From an uncultured Bacteroidota bacterium (GTDB lineage: Bacteria; Bacteroidota; Bacteroidia; B-17B0; Aurantibacillaceae): 64,000 bases of DNA. Where the stretch lies: assembly GCA_937873155.1 (NCBI GenBank), contig CALMVZ010000025.1, forward strand, positions 186,001 to 250,000, read 5' to 3'. Numbering within the stretch: the first letter of the stretch is position 1; each line of letters begins with the position of its first letter. Below, in pieces: positions 5,233-32,433 of this stretch. The translations under genes were made by a program, and so were the position numbers. A model generated the notes under the pieces. The model was not told the DNA's origin. It saw only the letters and a program-made list of their open reading frames with translations, and did no database searches.

Positions 5233-6474
5233 ATGGCAAAAGCAGGACCCATAGTTTGTTCATTTTGTAACCGCGATAAGAAGGATGTAAAGATCCTGAT
5301 CGCAGGTATCAGCGGACATATTTGCGATAATTGTATTTCGCAAGCCTTTAAAATGATCAGCGAAGAAGGTAATTCTGACGCTAAGCAAAAAGTTCAACAG
5401 GCATTAAATCTATTAAAGCCAAATGCGATCAAAACGTACCTGGATGAATATGTGATCGGCCAGAACGAAGCAAAAAAAGTAATGAGCGTTGCCGTGTATA
5501 ATCACTTTAAGCGTATCGCTCATGCCTCGAACGATAAAGAAGAGATTGAGATCGAGAAATCAAACGTAATTTTAGTTGGTGAAACAGGAACCGGAAAAAC
5601 ATTAATGGCGCGATCTATTGCAAAATTATTGAACGTTCCTTTTTGTATAGCTGATGCGACTGTATTAACGGAGGCAGGTTATGTTGGTGAAGACGTTGAA
5701 AGCATCTTAACCCGTTTATTGCAAGCTGCAGATTACGATACTGCTGCTGCTGAAAGAGGAATTGTATTTATTGATGAGATCGATAAGATCGCGCGTAAGA
5801 GCGATAATCCAAGTATCACACGTGATGTGAGCGGTGAAGGTGTTCAGCAGGCGATGTTGAAATTATTGGAAGGGTCAAGTGTGAATGTTCCGCCTCAGGG
5901 AGGAAGAAAACATCCGGATGCAAAAATGATCCAGGTGAACACGAAAAATATTTTATTTATCTGTGGCGGCGCATTCGATGGCATTGAAAAGAAGATCGCG
6001 AACCGTTTAAATACACAAGCTGTTGGTTATTCTGCATCGGTTTCAGGTGATGAGGTTGACAGAAGTAATTTATTGCAATACATTTCTCCACAAGATTTAA
6101 AATCTTTTGGGTTAATCCCGGAGTTAATCGGCCGTTTACCAATTCTCACTTATTTACAACCTTTAGATAAAAAAGCATTGCGTGCGATCTTAACAGACCC
6201 TAAGAATGCTTTGATCAAACAATACAAGCACTTATTTAAAATGGAAGGTATTAAGCTTGAGATCGAAGAAGAAGTGTTAGAATTAATTGTAGATAAAGCG
6301 CTCGAATTTAAATTAGGCGCACGTGGTTTACGCGGCATTTGTGAAGCGATCATGCTGGACCTGATGTTTGATCTGCCAAGCAGCGAAAAAGCCCCAAAAT
6401 CATTCACGATCAATTTAGATTATGCTATAGAAAAATTGAAAACCGCGAAGCTGAGCCATTTAAAGGCGGCCTGA
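5233..6474 (+). CDS. clpX: ATP-dependent Clp protease ATP-binding subunit ClpX
   Basis: Hexameric AAA+ unfoldase that feeds substrates to ClpP. 413 residues, full length. The N-terminal C4 zinc-binding domain (CSFCNRDK and HICDNC) is followed by Walker A GETGTGKT, pore loop GYVGEDVE, Walker [10 protein letters not shown], the RKH loop (GGRKHP), sensor 1 and the sensor 2 region ([15 protein letters not shown]). clpP is not adjacent here, unlike in many bacteria where clpP-clpX are paired. Its own promoter lies immediately upstream and a hairpin terminator follows, so it is probably monocistronic. Confidence 0.97.
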
Positions 6475-7838: not shown

Positions 7839-8810
7839 ATGGTGGTTTCGACTACGCTCAATCACCGGATTTTTGAAAACGTGGTGACTGAGCGTAGCCG
7901 AAGTCACATTGAAAAGAAAAAATTGATCGGGTATAATCCTATAATTCAAAAGATAAAGCTGGCGGGAACAGAAGTTTTCGTTTTACGTCTTGACCTGATC
8001 CATCCGCTGATCAGCGGCAACAAATGGTTCAAATTAAAATACAATGTAGAGGAAGCCAGGAAACAAGGTTGTGATACCATACTGACTTTCGGTGGCGCAT
8101 TTTCAAATCATATTCTTGCCACAGCGGTTGCTTGCAAAGAATTCGGATTTAAAAGTGTTGGTGTTATAAGAGGAGAAAAGGCATCCGAAACGAATTCAAC
8201 TTTAAGTGAAGCAAAAAAACACGGTATGCAATTGGCGTTTGTTTCACGCGAAGATTATGATCTAAAAGAAAATGAAAATTATATTGAAGGCTTCAGGAAT
8301 TGGTTCGGGAATTTTTATGTAGTTCCTGAAGGAGGAAATAACGAATTGGGAATTAAGGGCTGCGGAGAGGTGCTCCCAAAAGAAAATGATTTCGATATTA
8401 TCTTTTGTGCTAGCGGAACAGGAACAACATTCAAAGGAATTGAAAGATCATTAAAGAAAGATCAAAAACTTTTCGGTATCAGTGTTGTAAAAGGCGTCGG
8501 AGAATTAAATTCACTTCCAAATATGATCTCCGATTATCATTTCAGCGGTTATGCAAAACACACAAAGGTACTTTTGGAATTTAAAAACGAATTTGAGAAA
8601 GAACATAACATCCCTTTGGACTATGTTTACACAGCTAAATTATTTTTCGCGGTAGATGACCTGATCTCAAAAAATAAAATTCCTGACGGTAAAAAAGTAT
8701 TGGTGATCCATAGCGGAGGTTTGCAGGGAAACAAAGGCTACGAAGAGCGTTATCTTCTGATCCCTAACCGCAATGTAAATGACGCCCAGGGAAATGATTG
8801 TTTAGGATGA
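7839..8810 (+). CDS. D-cysteine desulfhydrase / ACC deaminase-family PLP enzyme
   Basis: Fold-type II PLP enzyme that deaminates D-cysteine or 1-aminocyclopropane-1-carboxylate. The PLP lysine lies in ISGNKWFKLKY (K62 counted from ATG 7839), the substrate-binding loop in FGGAFSNH, and the C-terminal HSGGLQGNKGYEERY matches the family. Substrate cannot be decided; D-cysteine is commoner in this phylum. The first ~23 codons (TLNHRIF ... VTERSRSH) are the translation of a dispersed palindromic repeat (7842-7907). The ancestral start may be TTG 7923, or the repeat may now supply part of the protein. The 3' end overlaps the convergent gene by 61 bp. Confidence 0.85.
   Translation: MVVSTTLNHRIFENVVTERSRSHIEKKKLIGYNPIIQKIKLAGTEVFVLRLDLIHPLISGNKWFKLKYNVEEARKQGCDTILTFGGAFSNHILATAVACKEFGFKSVGVIRGEKASETNSTLSEAKKHGMQLAFVSREDYDLKENENYIEGFRNWFGNFYVVPEGGNNELGIKGCGEVLPKENDFDIIFCASGTGTTFKGIERSLKKDQKLFGISVVKGVGELNSLPNMISDYHFSGYAKHTKVLLEFKNEFEKEHNIPLDYVYTAKLFFAVDDLISKNKIPDGKKVLVIHSGGLQGNKGYEERYLLIPNRNVNDAQGNDCLG
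7842..7907. repeat. 25-bp-arm interspersed palindrome inside a coding start
   Basis: The left arm 7842-7866 (..TTCGACTACGCTCA..) and right arm 7883-7907 (..TGAGCGTAGCCGAAG..) are complementary at 22 of 25 positions around a 16-nt loop. TGAGCGTAG(T/C)CGAA is a well-known type of interspersed repeat in Bacteroidota. It directly follows the ATG at 7839 and is in frame with the desulfhydrase. Confidence 0.85.
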
Positions 8811-9562
8811 AATGCACTGCTGAAGGGAGTAGAAATGATCCTTGCAAAACCAAATCCAAACGCAACAGTAGTTGCCATTTTACCTTTCGAATCACATAAT
8901 AAAAATCCTTGCTGGAACTGAACTGTATAAGCAGTGATGTTCGCTAAATTCACATCCGTCCCATATCTGAAACGCGGGCCAAAAAAGAATTTAGTGTGTG
9001 ATTTGGATTCATAATAATAATTCAGATCCAGGCCGGTAATAAATCCAACATTCCGTCTTACTTTTTCACGGGTATTTACAATTGTGTCGTTTGAACTGTT
9101 TGGTATCAAAACCCGGGGATCATAGGTCAGGCTAAATGGAACAGTAACGCCCATTTTTTTATCCATGAATAAATGCTCGTAGGTGAATGTTAATCGTCCC
9201 CATATAATATCTATTGGTTGGAATCCAAAGATGTTATCTTTAAAATCTTTTTCTTTTTCTCGTATCGCTTCTTTTCTCTCTAATTCACGCGTGTATTTGT
9301 TCCTTGGCGGTGATGTTGAACGGTAACTGTCATTTCCGAAAACATACATCTCACCGGTCTTTAATTCGGCCATTAACACATCCGTTTTATCCAGGGTGAA
9401 AAGTGTTGAGGTGCTGTCCTTGTAATCAATAGTTAGAATATTGATGGAGATCACCTTGCATTTTATTTTTGTGCCGTTCTTTAATATCAATTTGTCCTGC
9501 GCAAAAGTATTCACACACACCAGTAGTGTCATTAAAAGCAATATGTGAAGTTTCTTTTTCAT
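8750..9562 (-). CDS. Secreted outer-membrane-type hypothetical protein
   Basis: 270 residues from ATG 9562 (MKKKLHILLLMTLLVCVNTFAQ, a signal peptide). The ATG overlaps the stop of the upstream gene in TAATG, suggesting translational coupling; a longer frame to 9586 would sit inside that gene. The mature N-terminus KLILKNGTKIKCKVISIN followed by a TLDKTDV strand resembles the upstream protein's NGAKVKAVVKELN module. The second half has alternating hydrophobic strands (LTFTYEHLF, FFFGPRFRYG, VAFGFGFA) like a small outer-membrane barrel. The last 61 bp overlap the convergent desulfhydrase gene. Function unknown. Confidence 0.78.
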   Translation of the reverse strand: MKKKLHILLLMTLLVCVNTFAQDKLILKNGTKIKCKVISINILTIDYKDSTSTLFTLDKTDVLMAELKTGEMYVFGNDSYRSTSPPRNKYTRELERKEAIREKEKDFKDNIFGFQPIDIIWGRLTFTYEHLFMDKKMGVTVPFSLTYDPRVLIPNSSNDTIVNTREKVRRNVGFITGLDLNYYYESKSHTKFFFGPRFRYGTDVNLANITAYTVQFQQGFLLCDSKGKMATTVAFGFGFARIISTPFSSAFHPKQSFPWASFTLRLGIRR

Positions 9563-10437
9563 TAGTAGAACCTGTAACCAACGCACATCCCTAAATAAGC
9601 TTTCGGGAACGAACGTGTTCTTTGCGATCCGTTTTCGTTAAGCGCTTTTGAAATATCATCATCTTTATTCGTAAGGCCGAGGCCAAGAAATGCCCTGTAA
9701 GTAAAGAATGGCGTGATCCTGAATTGCAAACCATTAATGAGCAGCCCCGCGACTTGGAAATTATTCATGTTCTCCTGTTTGGTTCTTGTATAAATAATTC
9801 CGTTTAAATTTTCTTCCACTTCGGTTTCCCTGACATATTCGTAATGCATACACTTCACCATCACGCCGACGAAATATTGTGTTTTCCTTTTCGCTTGTGT
9901 GTAATAATTTATGCCAACACCGAGGTCATAATTCTTTTTGGAATTGCTGAGCGCTTGTATATACCGGTTAGTATAGTTGGTCTGGATATTTAAATTATAA
10001 GCACCCAAAAGTACAAGAGACAATCTGCTTTTTGCAATTTCACGGTCGTAGATCACAGCAATATCTGAATTCACCAAAGCGAGCCCGTTCAGGTAAATGC
10101 AATTCTTGTTACTGTAATGAAGTTCATAAGGTCCTTTCGGAATTTCTTTTTTAGGTAAAACAATTTCTTGTCCGGGTGGTAATATGGAAGCAGGTTCTTT
10201 GTTGATGATCTCTATAGTGCCATTCTGATACTCTATAAACAGGATATCTTTTTTATTAGCAACATACATAGGGCCATCCTGGTTATCAAAATTCTTATAT
10301 CTTACAGTAGTAACATTTAACTCTTTAACAACAGCTTTAACTTTTGCGCCGTTGTTCAGGTAAATGATATCCTGGGATCTTACCAGGTGGAATAAGAAAA
10401 CAAAAAACAGGAGCGACAGATATTTACCTCTGAGCAT
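9562..10437 (-). CDS. Secreted hypothetical protein with N-terminal NG-K domain and barrel-like C-terminus
   Basis: 291 residues with a signal peptide (LSLLFFVFLFHLVRSQ). The mature N-terminus DIIYLNNGAKVKAVVKELN...GPMYVANKKDILFIEYQNGT is a small beta domain common in Bacteroidota secreted proteins. It is followed by strand-rich sequence (YYTQAKRKTQYFVGVMV, ITPFFTYRAFLGLGL) ending in GVCVGYRFY-like aromatic residues, typical of outer-membrane barrels. It is the first gene of a two-gene unit with the paralog downstream. No enzymatic motif. Confidence 0.78.
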   Translation of the reverse strand: MLRGKYLSLLFFVFLFHLVRSQDIIYLNNGAKVKAVVKELNVTTVRYKNFDNQDGPMYVANKKDILFIEYQNGTIEIINKEPASILPPGQEIVLPKKEIPKGPYELHYSNKNCIYLNGLALVNSDIAVIYDREIAKSRLSLVLLGAYNLNIQTNYTNRYIQALSNSKKNYDLGVGINYYTQAKRKTQYFVGVMVKCMHYEYVRETEVEENLNGIIYTRTKQENMNNFQVAGLLINGLQFRITPFFTYRAFLGLGLTNKDDDISKALNENGSQRTRSFPKAYLGMCVGYRFY

Positions 10438-10524: not shown

Positions 10525-11619
10525 TTAATTGGTCTTATACACCATTACGTTAAATACGTAAGGGTTGATACGCTTGATCTGCTCGCTACGCTTTACACTT
10601 TTTAAAGAATTCTTTTTAAGGTTAAGATTGAAAGCTTGTTCCTGATCTTTTAACTGTTTGTTAAAGGCATTGACTGTGCTGATGATCTGTTGTGAACGGA
10701 TAGCAAAACCGGTCGCTTCAGCATTTGTGATCTTACCGCGAACCAAACCGATCACAGCGCCTTGTTCATCCAATAAAGGACCACCGCTATTACCCGGGTT
10801 AACCGGGATTGAGATCTGATACATGGTTGTATCGCTGTGATAGCCGCTTAAAGAACTTAAAGAACCTTCACCATAAACGATGTCTTTACGCGGGAATCCC
10901 AGTGTGAACACTTTTTCTCCAAGATCACAATTACGGTTACTGAATGCAAATGGAACATTCCACGTTTTGTAGACTTCGGTATTTTCAATTTGCAGAACAG
11001 CCACATCAATTTTAGGATCAGAGAAAACTAATTTTGTAGCAGTGCGTCCGGTATTACTGTTCTCAATAAAAACAGAATCCGCACCTTTTATCATGTGCAA
11101 GCTGGTGATGATATAACCTTTGTTATTGATCGCAAAACCTGTGCCTTCAAAATTAGCCGGAGCATATTTTGGTTTTTCAGTTGCATTTGAGATCGCTTCA
11201 ACAATTCCGTCCTGTGTGTATTTTAATTCGCTCACCTCACGTTTCAGGTCAGTGATATCATTGTTTTGTTTAGTAAGAATGTATCCGCCCGTGCTGAATA
11301 AAGCTAAAGCAGAAAGAACCGCGATCAAACCAACACCTGCAGCCATAGCTACATTGCGGCCTAATTTTTTGGTAAAAGTATCCTGTTTAATAGAGATGAT
11401 CTTCGCATCGTTGCCGAATTCTTTTTCATGAATGGCTTTTAATGCTTTACGTAATTCATTTCTCTCAGCGTGTTTGTTCAAAGCATCCACCAAAGTTTTA
11501 TGTTCGTTGAATGCATTCGCAAAAACTTCGTCAGTTTTCAAATTGTTCTCAAACTCACTTTTTTGTCGGGCATTTAATTTCCCCAACAAATAATCATCAA
11601 ATAGATCTGTATTCTTCAT
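10525..11619 (-). CDS. Membrane-anchored trypsin-like serine protease with anti-sigma-like N-terminus
   Basis: 364 residues. Residues 1-50 (LFDDYLLGKLNARQKSEFE...) match the helical N-terminus of zinc-less Bacteroidota anti-sigma factors. One TM helix lies at about 90-112, then a short coiled coil (DITDLKREVSELKY), then a chymotrypsin-fold protease with H175 (TSLHMIKGA), D205 (DPKIDVAVLQI) and S278 (NPGNSGGPLLD), as in DegP/HtrA. No PDZ domain follows. Predicted topology is N-in, protease in the periplasm. Encoded 97 bp downstream of an ECF sigma factor, it may combine sigma binding and envelope proteolysis in one chain; that is inference. Confidence 0.85.
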   Translation of the reverse strand: MKNTDLFDDYLLGKLNARQKSEFENNLKTDEVFANAFNEHKTLVDALNKHAERNELRKALKAIHEKEFGNDAKIISIKQDTFTKKLGRNVAMAAGVGLIAVLSALALFSTGGYILTKQNNDITDLKREVSELKYTQDGIVEAISNATEKPKYAPANFEGTGFAINNKGYIITSLHMIKGADSVFIENSNTGRTATKLVFSDPKIDVAVLQIENTEVYKTWNVPFAFSNRNCDLGEKVFTLGFPRKDIVYGEGSLSSLSGYHSDTTMYQISIPVNPGNSGGPLLDEQGAVIGLVRGKITNAEATGFAIRSQQIISTVNAFNKQLKDQEQAFNLNLKKNSLKSVKRSEQIKRINPYVFNVMVYKTN

Positions 11620-11716
11620 TTTATTTTTCCTTTCTTTATAATAAAGCGTATTTATTCTACTTTATTATTTCTCCTCTTTTATTTTTAATGATCCTGAAGT
11701 GTGCTTTGCTTTAGGA

Positions 11717-12274
11717 TCATTTGTCAAAAAAATTCTTTTTCAATCGCTGCAGGCATTTATACTTCTGAGTTTTCGCGTTGTCTGAATTCGTGTAACCGAA
11801 TTTCTCAGAGATCTCTTCCATGCTTAAATGACTAATGTAAAAATCAGTGATGATTGTTTTGCAGGGTTCTCCCAATTCATCCAGGCTTTTCGTCATTTTC
11901 AGAAGCGCTGCTTCTTTTTGCAAATGTTCGTTTATTTCTTCACTTACATCTACCAGTTCATCTTCATCGCCATTGCTTAATTTGGTTAAGTTGCTGTTAT
12001 TTCTAAGCTGCTTTAACCATAAACGTTTAGCTATTGAATAGATGAACGTTTGCAACTGGCAATTCAGAACGAAATTCGGTTTTTGAGCATTTTCAAAGAG
12101 TACGATGATTGTCTCTTGGTAAATGTCCTGCGCCGCCTCACTGCTGCCACTGTTATTCACAACAATTTTAAGAACGATATTATAGTACTTTTTATACAGT
12201 GCCTTTAAAGCTGCTTCGTTGCCGGTCCTTAGTCCTTCAATAAATTCAGAGTCCGAAAATGCTTTGGCAGCCAT
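11717..12274 (-). CDS. ECF-type RNA polymerase sigma factor
   Basis: 185 residues from ATG 12274 (MAAKAFSDSEFIEGL). A longer frame to 12319 is unlikely because a -7 box lies inside it. Region 2 is visible as ALKALYKKYYNIVLKIV...AAQDIYQETIIVLFENA...LQTFIYSIAKRLWLKQLR, and region 4 as the C-terminal HTH (MEEISEKFGYTNSDNAKTQKYKCLQRL). It sits directly upstream of the membrane protease with the anti-sigma-like N-terminus, the usual arrangement of an ECF sigma factor and its regulator. Target promoters unknown. Confidence 0.9.
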   Translation of the reverse strand: MAAKAFSDSEFIEGLRTGNEAALKALYKKYYNIVLKIVVNNSGSSEAAQDIYQETIIVLFENAQKPNFVLNCQLQTFIYSIAKRLWLKQLRNNSNLTKLSNGDEDELVDVSEEINEHLQKEAALLKMTKSLDELGEPCKTIITDFYISHLSMEEISEKFGYTNSDNAKTQKYKCLQRLKKNFFDK

Positions 12275-12305
12275 AAAGCCTGTATAGATTAATACTGTTA
12301 AAAGG

Positions 12306-12313
12306 CAAAGGTA
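12306..12313 (-). promoter_or_regulatory. -7 promoter box of the ECF sigma operon
   Basis: TACCTTTG read on the minus strand matches TAnnTTTG and lies 31 bp upstream of ATG 12274. It supports the shorter start for the sigma factor. No clear -33 TTTG was seen at the usual distance. Confidence 0.5.
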
Positions 12314-12490
12314 ACCCAAAATTGAAGTAGGAATTACGATTGACGAGGTACGAAAAGGATAAATGTAAAATTTACTTATTGATAATCAATATGTTATGGA
12401 AAATATCCATTTTCTCCCAAATTTTAGGGTTACCAAAAGCTCGTTACGGTATAAATGATCAAATATTATAAACGTTTAAAACCCAATTTC

Positions 12491-12727
12491 ATGAAAAAAG
12501 TATTGTCATTAATCGCTGTAGCTTTAGTAGCTACTTTTGTTGCTTGTGGTCCTTCTGCAGAAGAAAAAGCTAAAGCTGAAGAAGCTGCAAAGCGTACTGC
12601 TGATTCTATCGCGAAAGCTTTAGAAGCTAGCTTAAGTTCTGCTGTTAGCGAAGCTACTGCTCCTGCTGACTCAACTGCTGCTGCAACAACTGAAACTACT
12701 GCTCCGGCTGCTGAAGAAAAGCACTAA
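12491..12727 (+). CDS. Small alanine/glutamate-rich lipoprotein
   Basis: 78 residues from ATG 12491: MKKVLSLIAVALVATFVAC with a lipobox-like cleavage site before Cys19, then GPSAEEKAKAEEAAKRTADSIAK, a charged helix, and a low-complexity Ala/Thr/Ser/Pro tail. An in-frame ATG at 12455 would add MIKYYKRLKPNF and spoil the signal peptide. Its homolog follows at 12846 (CGP-A-E, AKR, DS motifs shared). Likely an abundant lipid-anchored envelope protein of unknown role. A hairpin terminator follows 29 bp after the stop. Confidence 0.85.
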   Translation: MKKVLSLIAVALVATFVACGPSAEEKAKAEEAAKRTADSIAKALEASLSSAVSEATAPADSTAAATTETTAPAAEEKH

Positions 12728-30717: not shown

Positions 30718-30818
30718 TTTATAATGTCGGAAAAAGCCGACAATTCATGTAAAAACATTTGTCGGAAAAAGCCGACATTAATAGCTAAAAATAACCTTAA
30801 TGTCGGAAAAAACCAACA
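30684..30818 (+). promoter_or_regulatory. Array of four HipB-type operators
   Basis: Four copies of the palindrome TGTCGGAAAAAGCCGACA (6-bp arms TGTCGG/CCGACA, 6-nt spacer): 30684-30701, 30725-30742, 30760-30777 and 30801-30818. The first three are identical; the fourth has one arm change (CCAACA). Start-to-start spacing is 41, 35 and 41 bp. Operator 4 contains all but the first base of the hipB ATG, so its sequence also encodes the first HipB residues (MSEKTN). Autorepression by HipB, helped by HipA, is known for E. coli hipBA and is inferred here. Confidence 0.88.
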
Positions 30819-31144
30819 TAAACAGTTTTACGGACAGCGGATTAATAGAGATGCTGGCCAGCTTCATAAGATATCATCGTATTGACCAGAACAAAACGCA
30901 AGCTCAATTAGCAAATGAAGCGGGAATTAACCGCTCTACACTGGCTGAATTTGAAACTGGAAAGAGAACGAATCTAACATCCTTTATTCAACTCCTACGA
31001 GCCCTTAATTTACTCTATACCTTAGAACAGTTCCAGGTACAAAAACAAATAAGCCCTCTTCAACTTGCAAAGCTGGAACAGGAACAAAGAAAAAGAGCTT
31101 CAAAAACAAAGAAAACTCCACGAAAAAATAAATCTACCTGGTAA
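30800..31144 (+). CDS. hipB: HipB-like XRE-family antitoxin/repressor
   Basis: 114 residues. HTH_3 domain at about 17-75: IRYHRIDQNKTQAQLANEAG, INRSTLAEFETGKRTNLTSF, LLRALNLL. The C-terminal tail is basic (RKRASKTKKTPRKNKSTW). It neutralises HipA and should bind the four upstream palindromes. The ATG at 30800 lies within operator 4. The stop overlaps the hipA ATG (TAATG, 31142-31146), giving coupled translation. Confidence 0.88.
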   Translation: MSEKTNINSFTDSGLIEMLASFIRYHRIDQNKTQAQLANEAGINRSTLAEFETGKRTNLTSFIQLLRALNLLYTLEQFQVQKQISPLQLAKLEQEQRKRASKTKKTPRKNKSTW

Positions 31145-32433
31145 TGATAACAACTGCGTATGTAAATATCTGGAATCAGCGTGTGGGAGCTATCGCTTGG
31201 GATTCTGATACAGGAATTGGCTCTTTTGAATTCGAACCAAATTTCTTGAAGAAACATTTAGACCTTGCTCCAATCAAAATGCCTATAACTAAGGCAGAAA
31301 AAAAGGTGTTTAGGTTCCCGGAGTTGAGAAGCGCAAATACATTTAGCGGCTTGCCTGGCTTAGTGGTTGATGCGCTTCCTGATAAATATGGAAACGCTTT
31401 GATAAATGCCTGGCTCATCAGACAAGAACGTCCAAGTGATAGTTTGAATCCAGTTGAAAAATTGTGCTTCATCGGAAAAAGAGGAATGGGTGCACTGGAA
31501 TTTGAACCTGTGATGCAGAAGACAGCGGATAAAGCAACTAAAATTGAATTAAATAGTTTGATAGAAATTGCTGAACAAATATTAACGGGCCGCAAAAATT
31601 TCAAGACGAAATTATTACCTAATGAGGAAAAAGCTCTATTGGATATTCTGAAAATAGGTACTTCAGCTGGTGGAGCACGAGCAAAAGCAGTTATTGCATT
31701 TAATCCTAAAACAAAAGAAATACGAAGCGGCCAAGCAGATGCTCCTGCTGGATTCTCACATTGGCTCATAAAATTTGATGGGGTTACTGACAAGCAGTTT
31801 GGCGCTTCAAGTGGATATGGAAGAGTCGAAATGGCTTATTATAACATGGCTATTGATGCTGGAATCGAAATGACCGAGAGTCGTCTGTTGGAAGAAAACG
31901 GAAGAGCGCATTTTATGACGAAACGCTTCGACAGAGACAAAGGAAAAAAAATTCACGTTCAAAGTTTCTGCGCCATGCAGCATTATGACTTCAATGAAAT
32001 TAATTTATATAGCTACGAGCAACTTTTTGAAACAATGCGCTTATTAGGTCTACCGTTTACAGCGGCAGAGCAAATGTACAGAAGGATGGTGTTTAATGTC
32101 ATTGGAAGAAACTGTGATGACCACACAAAAAATTTTGCTTTCACAATGAGCCAAAATGGGAAATGGAGTTTGTCACCAGCATACGATGTCTGTCACGCTT
32201 ATCGGCCAGGCAGTGATTGGGTAAGCCAGCACTGTTTAAGTGTTAATAGTAAAAGAAAAGATATTAATCGAAAGGACTTAGTTAAGATTGGCAAGCAGAT
32301 GAATATCAAAAAAGCAGATAAAATTATAGACCAAATATCTTCCGTAATTAGTAACTGGTCTCAATACGCCGCTAAAGTTGACGTGAACCAGAAACTAACA
32401 AGCTCAATTAAAAAAACTTTGTTGGTCTTATAA
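31144..32433 (+). CDS. hipA: HipA-like serine/threonine kinase toxin
   Basis: 429 residues, full length for HipA. N-terminal subdomain AYVNIWNQRVGAIAW and FSGLPGLVVDALPDKYGN; the autophosphorylation loop GTSAGGARAKA (S174); ATP-binding Lys in WLIKFDG (K210); catalytic loop NVIGRNCDDHTKNFAF (D325/D326); and Mg-binding Asp in SPAYDVCHA (D348). In E. coli HipA phosphorylates glutamyl-tRNA synthetase and promotes persistence; the target here is unknown. All catalytic residues are intact, so the toxin is expected to be active. Confidence 0.92.
   Translation: MITTAYVNIWNQRVGAIAWDSDTGIGSFEFEPNFLKKHLDLAPIKMPITKAEKKVFRFPELRSANTFSGLPGLVVDALPDKYGNALINAWLIRQERPSDSLNPVEKLCFIGKRGMGALEFEPVMQKTADKATKIELNSLIEIAEQILTGRKNFKTKLLPNEEKALLDILKIGTSAGGARAKAVIAFNPKTKEIRSGQADAPAGFSHWLIKFDGVTDKQFGASSGYGRVEMAYYNMAIDAGIEMTESRLLEENGRAHFMTKRFDRDKGKKIHVQSFCAMQHYDFNEINLYSYEQLFETMRLLGLPFTAAEQMYRRMVFNVIGRNCDDHTKNFAFTMSQNGKWSLSPAYDVCHAYRPGSDWVSQHCLSVNSKRKDINRKDLVKIGKQMNIKKADKIIDQISSVISNWSQYAAKVDVNQKLTSSIKKTLLVL

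Follow-up and report, generated by a model that had tools for sequence, protein, structure and literature searches.

A predicted anti-sigma factor and HtrA-fold protease joined in one chain beside an ECF sigma factor gene in Bacteroidota

Can a single protein hold an ECF sigma factor inactive and also carry the protease that begins its release? The question is raised by two adjoining genes on the minus strand of a 64,000-nucleotide stretch of DNA (hereafter the window) from an uncultured Bacteroidota bacterium. The upstream gene (11717..12274) encodes an ECF sigma factor of 185 aa that matched NCBIfam sigma70-ECF (E 3.5e-19) and Pfam Sigma70_r2 (E 2.7e-8). The downstream gene (10525..11619) encodes a protein of 364 aa, called here the fusion, which was delimited from its open reading frame, Pfam, alignment and AlphaFold. 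The original prediction read the fusion as one chain containing an anti-sigma-like segment, a TM helix and an HtrA-like protease with an intact triad, and this reading was supported, together with the adjoining sigma gene. The start that had been given to the sigma gene, a TTG extension at 12319, is probably wrong. The ATG at 12274 is more likely, because close orthologues begin there in the alignment and because a conserved promoter at 12289-12316 would otherwise fall within the gene. On balance, we favour the view that the two genes form an autoregulated circuit for envelope stress in Bacteroidota, with the anti-sigma factor and the site-1 protease as parts of one chain.

The original prediction had proposed looking for orthologous gene pairs, and 64 distinct sigma and fusion pairs were found. 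The sigma gene was directly upstream of the fusion in 64/64, often with a 4-bp overlap, and conservation of the pair at this many loci rules out a chance adjacency or a gene-prediction artefact. Within the source family, 36 other genomes were searched and 33 had the fusion, one of them as a C-terminal fragment only; the same whole-genome search also found it in two genomes of other families. In G005, a source-family genome in which the fusion is missing, the sigma gene's start and its promoter lie at a contig end, so that the absence is explained by an assembly gap. Wider searches brought the number of families with a full-length fusion to at least seven, all in one Bacteroidota class. In an eighth family (G384), about 37 positions at the start of the model are missing from the frame. 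When the phylum was sampled evenly, 21 of 296 genomes contained the fusion. In the window, the gap between the two genes (11620-11716) is 97 bp long, and in most relatives it is about 20 bp or the genes overlap. A strong hairpin (-16.2 kcal/mol, z -5.1) and a further stem can form in the RNA of this gap, which may represent an attenuator or an inserted repeat. Downstream of the fusion, at 8750-10437, are genes for two outer-membrane-like proteins that gave no hit in Pfam. As they neighbour the pair in this genus alone, they were rejected as part of the system. Further along the window, at 30800-32433, a helix-turn-helix regulator is followed by a HipA-like protein, and the two look like a HipBA pair by sequence.

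The AlphaFold model of the fusion, built with 39 homologues, contains helices at residues 2-11, 17-29 and 31-68, a TM helix at about 87-109, a coiled coil at 115-140 (low confidence), a confidently modelled protease fold at 157-322 and, towards the C-terminus, a helix and a strand at 344-361. The protease domain (residues 157-322; 10654..11151, minus strand) has a trypsin/HtrA fold, as judged by Pfam, Foldseek and alignment. Pfam Trypsin_2 matched residues 159-292 (E 1.8e-21), and the best Foldseek match was DegS-deltaPDZ (E 1.4e-12). The triad residues H175, D205 and S278 are those named in the original prediction. Across the alignment of 65 rows, which represent 63 distinct proteins with identities as low as about 30%, none of the three varies, nor do G276 and G279; a degenerate pseudoprotease is thereby ruled out. 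By this pattern of conservation, the protease is under selection for activity. No PDZ domain was found in a Pfam scan of the window's fusion or among the 25 commonest families of the 39 members, and only about 40 residues follow the protease fold. The label "HtrA-type" given at first is therefore kept for the protease fold, where the triad is intact, and dropped for the PDZ domain, which is absent. The best NCBIfam match of the protease part was MarP/Rv3671c (E 2.3e-26), with a score of 92.7 bits against a family cut-off of 250 bits. MarP has several TM helices and is not known to carry an anti-sigma module. At the end of the fusion lies a strongly conserved tail of about 22 residues (LKSVKRSEQIKRINPYVFNVMVYK; residues 341-362; 10534..10599, minus strand), defined from the alignment and modelled as a helix (344-354) and a strand (355-361). 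Protease relatives without the N-terminal module also have this tail, so it is part of the protease subfamily; possibly it is a regulatory element replacing the PDZ domain. The fusion thus offers a minimal system for learning how a PDZ-less protease is switched by an envelope signal.

The N-terminal part (residues 2-68; 11416..11616, minus strand) is a three-helix anti-sigma-like module, according to AlphaFold, VIA and NCBIfam. Modelled alone, it reached a pLDDT of 90.7. Its top three entries in VIA-align were RsiW (Z 5.8), RskA (Z 5.2) and RslA (Z 4.8), all with Z below 8, and the next entry was an unrelated repeat protein at Z 2.0. Since Z values of 4.8-5.8 are too low to settle a small helical fold, we take them as support only. 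Foldseek gave 16 matches, all weak (E above 2), five of them to anti-sigma domains, and an NCBIfam anti-sigma model gave a sub-threshold match in 27 of the 39 fusion members. No Pfam anti-sigma family matched in the window's fusion or among the 25 commonest families of the 39 members. An unrelated fold at the N-terminus, which would have spoken against the original prediction, was thus looked for: the nearest structures are anti-sigma domains, but their scores are modest.

The distribution of the module is also informative. When it is joined to C-termini other than a protease, an ECF sigma gene lies directly upstream in 13 of the 18 loci examined, and one genome (G047) has both the protease version and a 766-aa version with the same module. 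In the source genome, a search with the module alone found no second clear copy. As a swappable cytoplasmic module of sigma operons, it has the character of an anti-sigma domain, and a class I-like domain of that kind is the explanation that suits it best. We also considered that the fusion might be a membrane-anchored HtrA-like quality-control protease with an unrelated helical N-terminus, merely carried in a sigma operon whose real anti-sigma factor lies elsewhere. The absence of a Pfam anti-sigma match and the ease with which small helical bundles resemble each other in fold would fit this reading. We nevertheless find it improbable: the pair is never apart in the 64 loci, the module stands again behind sigma genes when it has other C-termini, and anti-sigma domains are clearly ahead among the closest solved structures. 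FecR-like proteins are membrane regulators of ECF sigmas and are needed for their activity. By this precedent, the module could tether the sigma factor at the membrane without simple inhibition, acting as a co-activator or localisation factor; since fold and architecture are like those of plain class I anti-sigmas such as RskA, we give this reading even less credit. The module follows ECF sigma genes while its C-terminal partner varies widely (L050 and L171-L192); on the anti-sigma reading, it therefore marks a wider anti-sigma class of Bacteroidota that Pfam does not recognise. Only 6% of Bacteroidetes ECFs adjoin a recognised class I anti-sigma domain (PMC7406223). ECF regulation in this phylum is poorly explained, and the fusion family and the wider module point to anti-sigmas that have been missed.

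The module is followed by a TM helix region (about residues 90-113; 11281..11352, minus strand), placed by AlphaFold and alignment. Mean charges of +3.0 before and +1.0 after the one hydrophobic helix (65 rows) predict a single TM helix with the N-terminus inside. In 65/65 rows, residues 93-94 (11338-11343) are Ala-Ala; the residue before them, 92, is V, I or M in 60/65. In RseA, cleavage by RseP exposes an end that is recognised by ClpXP, at VAA. Cleavage of RsgI anti-sigmas by RseP in the TM helix likewise exposes an XAA end recognised by ClpXP (PMC12203970). By analogy, the invariant Ala-Ala of the fusion resembles an XAA degron recognised by ClpXP after site-2 cleavage. Genes for M50 site-2 proteases are present in the source genome, and a clpX-like gene, judged from its sequence, lies in the window at 5233-6474. 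An invariant XAA-type motif in the TM helix, M50 genes and a clpX-like gene together fit regulated intramembrane proteolysis. The small residues could instead be kept for packing of the TM helix.

We propose the following sequence of events. The three-helix module, given its architecture and fold, would inhibit the ECF sigma factor in the cytoplasm, and the extracytoplasmic HtrA-fold protease would serve as a built-in site-1 protease. On an envelope signal, the protease would cut the linker between itself and the TM helix, in cis or between subunits. An M50 site-2 protease would then cut in the TM helix and leave a [VIM]AA end, and ClpXP would degrade the stub and free the sigma factor. From the promoter motif, the freed sigma factor is predicted to act at GGTTACY-N14-GWATWAA promoters, driving transcription of its own operon and of envelope lipoproteins. 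In its full form, the proposal is of a single-chain switch that is widespread in Bacteroidota, cuts its anti-sigma part with its own HtrA-fold protease and controls an autoregulated small-lipoprotein regulon; we regard it as evenly poised. The site-1 region is probably formed by the coiled-coil linker (residues 115-140; 11200..11277, minus strand), which AlphaFold models as a helix of low pLDDT, with residues 141-154. No obvious conserved cleavage site was found in the fusion linker. There is a precedent in HtrAw of Brevibacillus WF146, an HtrA-like protease that removes its own N-terminal membrane anchor, intermolecularly and when substrate is present (PMC5359297), which makes a self-cleaving anti-sigma factor of the kind proposed here plausible. 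HtrAw differs in having a PDZ domain and an anchor that is not known to bind a sigma factor.

The main rival is a sensor/effector role without self-cleavage. There, the module would restrain the sigma factor, the protease would act on envelope substrates, perhaps lipoproteins, and not be its own site-1 protease, and release would be triggered by substrate occupancy or by another protease. Some protease relatives share the C-terminal tail but lack the anti-sigma module, so the protease domain has functions of its own, and the module is also joined to C-termini that are not proteases. Autoregulation would moreover increase protease output, as sigmaE raises DegP. We hold this role to be unlikely, though it deserves more weight than the other alternatives: a fused protease beside a TM helix whose XAA motif is invariant fits self-cleavage more economically, and HtrA-like anchors can be autoprocessed.

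Several known systems come close to the pair. Like the E. coli sigmaE-RseA-DegS-RseP-ClpXP system, the pair has an ECF sigma factor, a predicted single-TM anti-sigma factor, an extracytoplasmic HtrA-fold protease and XAA in the TM helix, and autoregulation and envelope targets are predicted. Unlike RseA and DegS, which are two proteins, the predicted anti-sigma factor and the protease are here one chain without PDZ, and the predicted regulon consists of small lipoproteins and DUF4349 proteins. A parallel to the proposed first step is RsgI of Clostridium thermocellum, an anti-sigma chain that supplies its own first cleavage before RseP and then ClpXP act at XAA, as the fusion may do; RsgI uses a special autocleavage domain and not a serine protease fold, and its partner is a SigI factor (PMC12203970). 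Each part of the fusion is of a known kind; having both in a single chain makes it a variant on RseA/DegS. We found no description of an anti-sigma/HtrA-protease fusion in the open-access papers searched, which does not by itself prove that none exists.

Autoregulation is predicted from a motif shared by the upstream regions. In an upstream alignment of 15 source-family members, GGTTACC-N14-GTATTAA was found shortly before the sigma start, and the motif also lies upstream of sigma in other families. With at most 1 mismatch, GGTTACY-N14-GWATWAA occurred within 160 bp upstream of sigma in 49/64 pairs, and in several of the remaining pairs the motif spacing differs by one. Reversed-motif controls upstream of sigma always had at least 3 mismatches. 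When random 180-bp stretches were taken from these loci, only 0.03% reached a match this good (at most 1 mismatch). A search of the source family gave 30 matches against 4 for reversed controls. In the window, the conserved motif predicts a sigma-dependent promoter of the sigma-fusion operon (GGTTACCTTTGCCTTTTAACAGTATTAA; 12289..12316, minus strand), and a second promoter of the same type (GGTTACCAAAAGCTCGTTACGGTATAAA; 12428..12455, plus strand) is divergent from it, an arrangement that recurs in three other genomes (G004, G032 and G432). At five further loci (L055, L056, L063, L064 and L086), a motif copy points the other way and is separated from the sigma promoter, on its upstream side, by a few tens of bp. 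With such a second copy, seen in several families, the two promoters face apart and their -35 elements lie close together. A search of papers for the motif gave no match.

Across the 4.85 Mb of the source genome, GGTTACY-N14-GWATWAA occurred three times and the reversed control 0 times. The three sites lie before the sigma gene, before the divergent gene of a small lipoprotein of 78 aa (MKKVLSLIAVALVATFVAC...; 12491..12727, plus strand), a predicted member of the sigma regulon by the motif upstream of it, and before a DUF4349 lipoprotein (Pfam E 2.9e-51). Among the one-mismatch sites of this genome, 7/8 are within long open frames and look like chance; the DUF4349 site alone looks real. In other genomes, small low-complexity lipoproteins follow the motif in several families, and DUF4349 proteins do so in three families. 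Its targets are thus predicted to be mostly lipoproteins, which suggests that the sigma-fusion pair controls small envelope lipoproteins and makes an envelope role of the pair likely. With a predicted promoter and a regulon of three sites in the source genome, the circuit can be tested directly. The motif was also seen, in two genera belonging to one family, before a 96-aa protein that matches AMPK1_CBM and is not a lipoprotein (L137 and L154).
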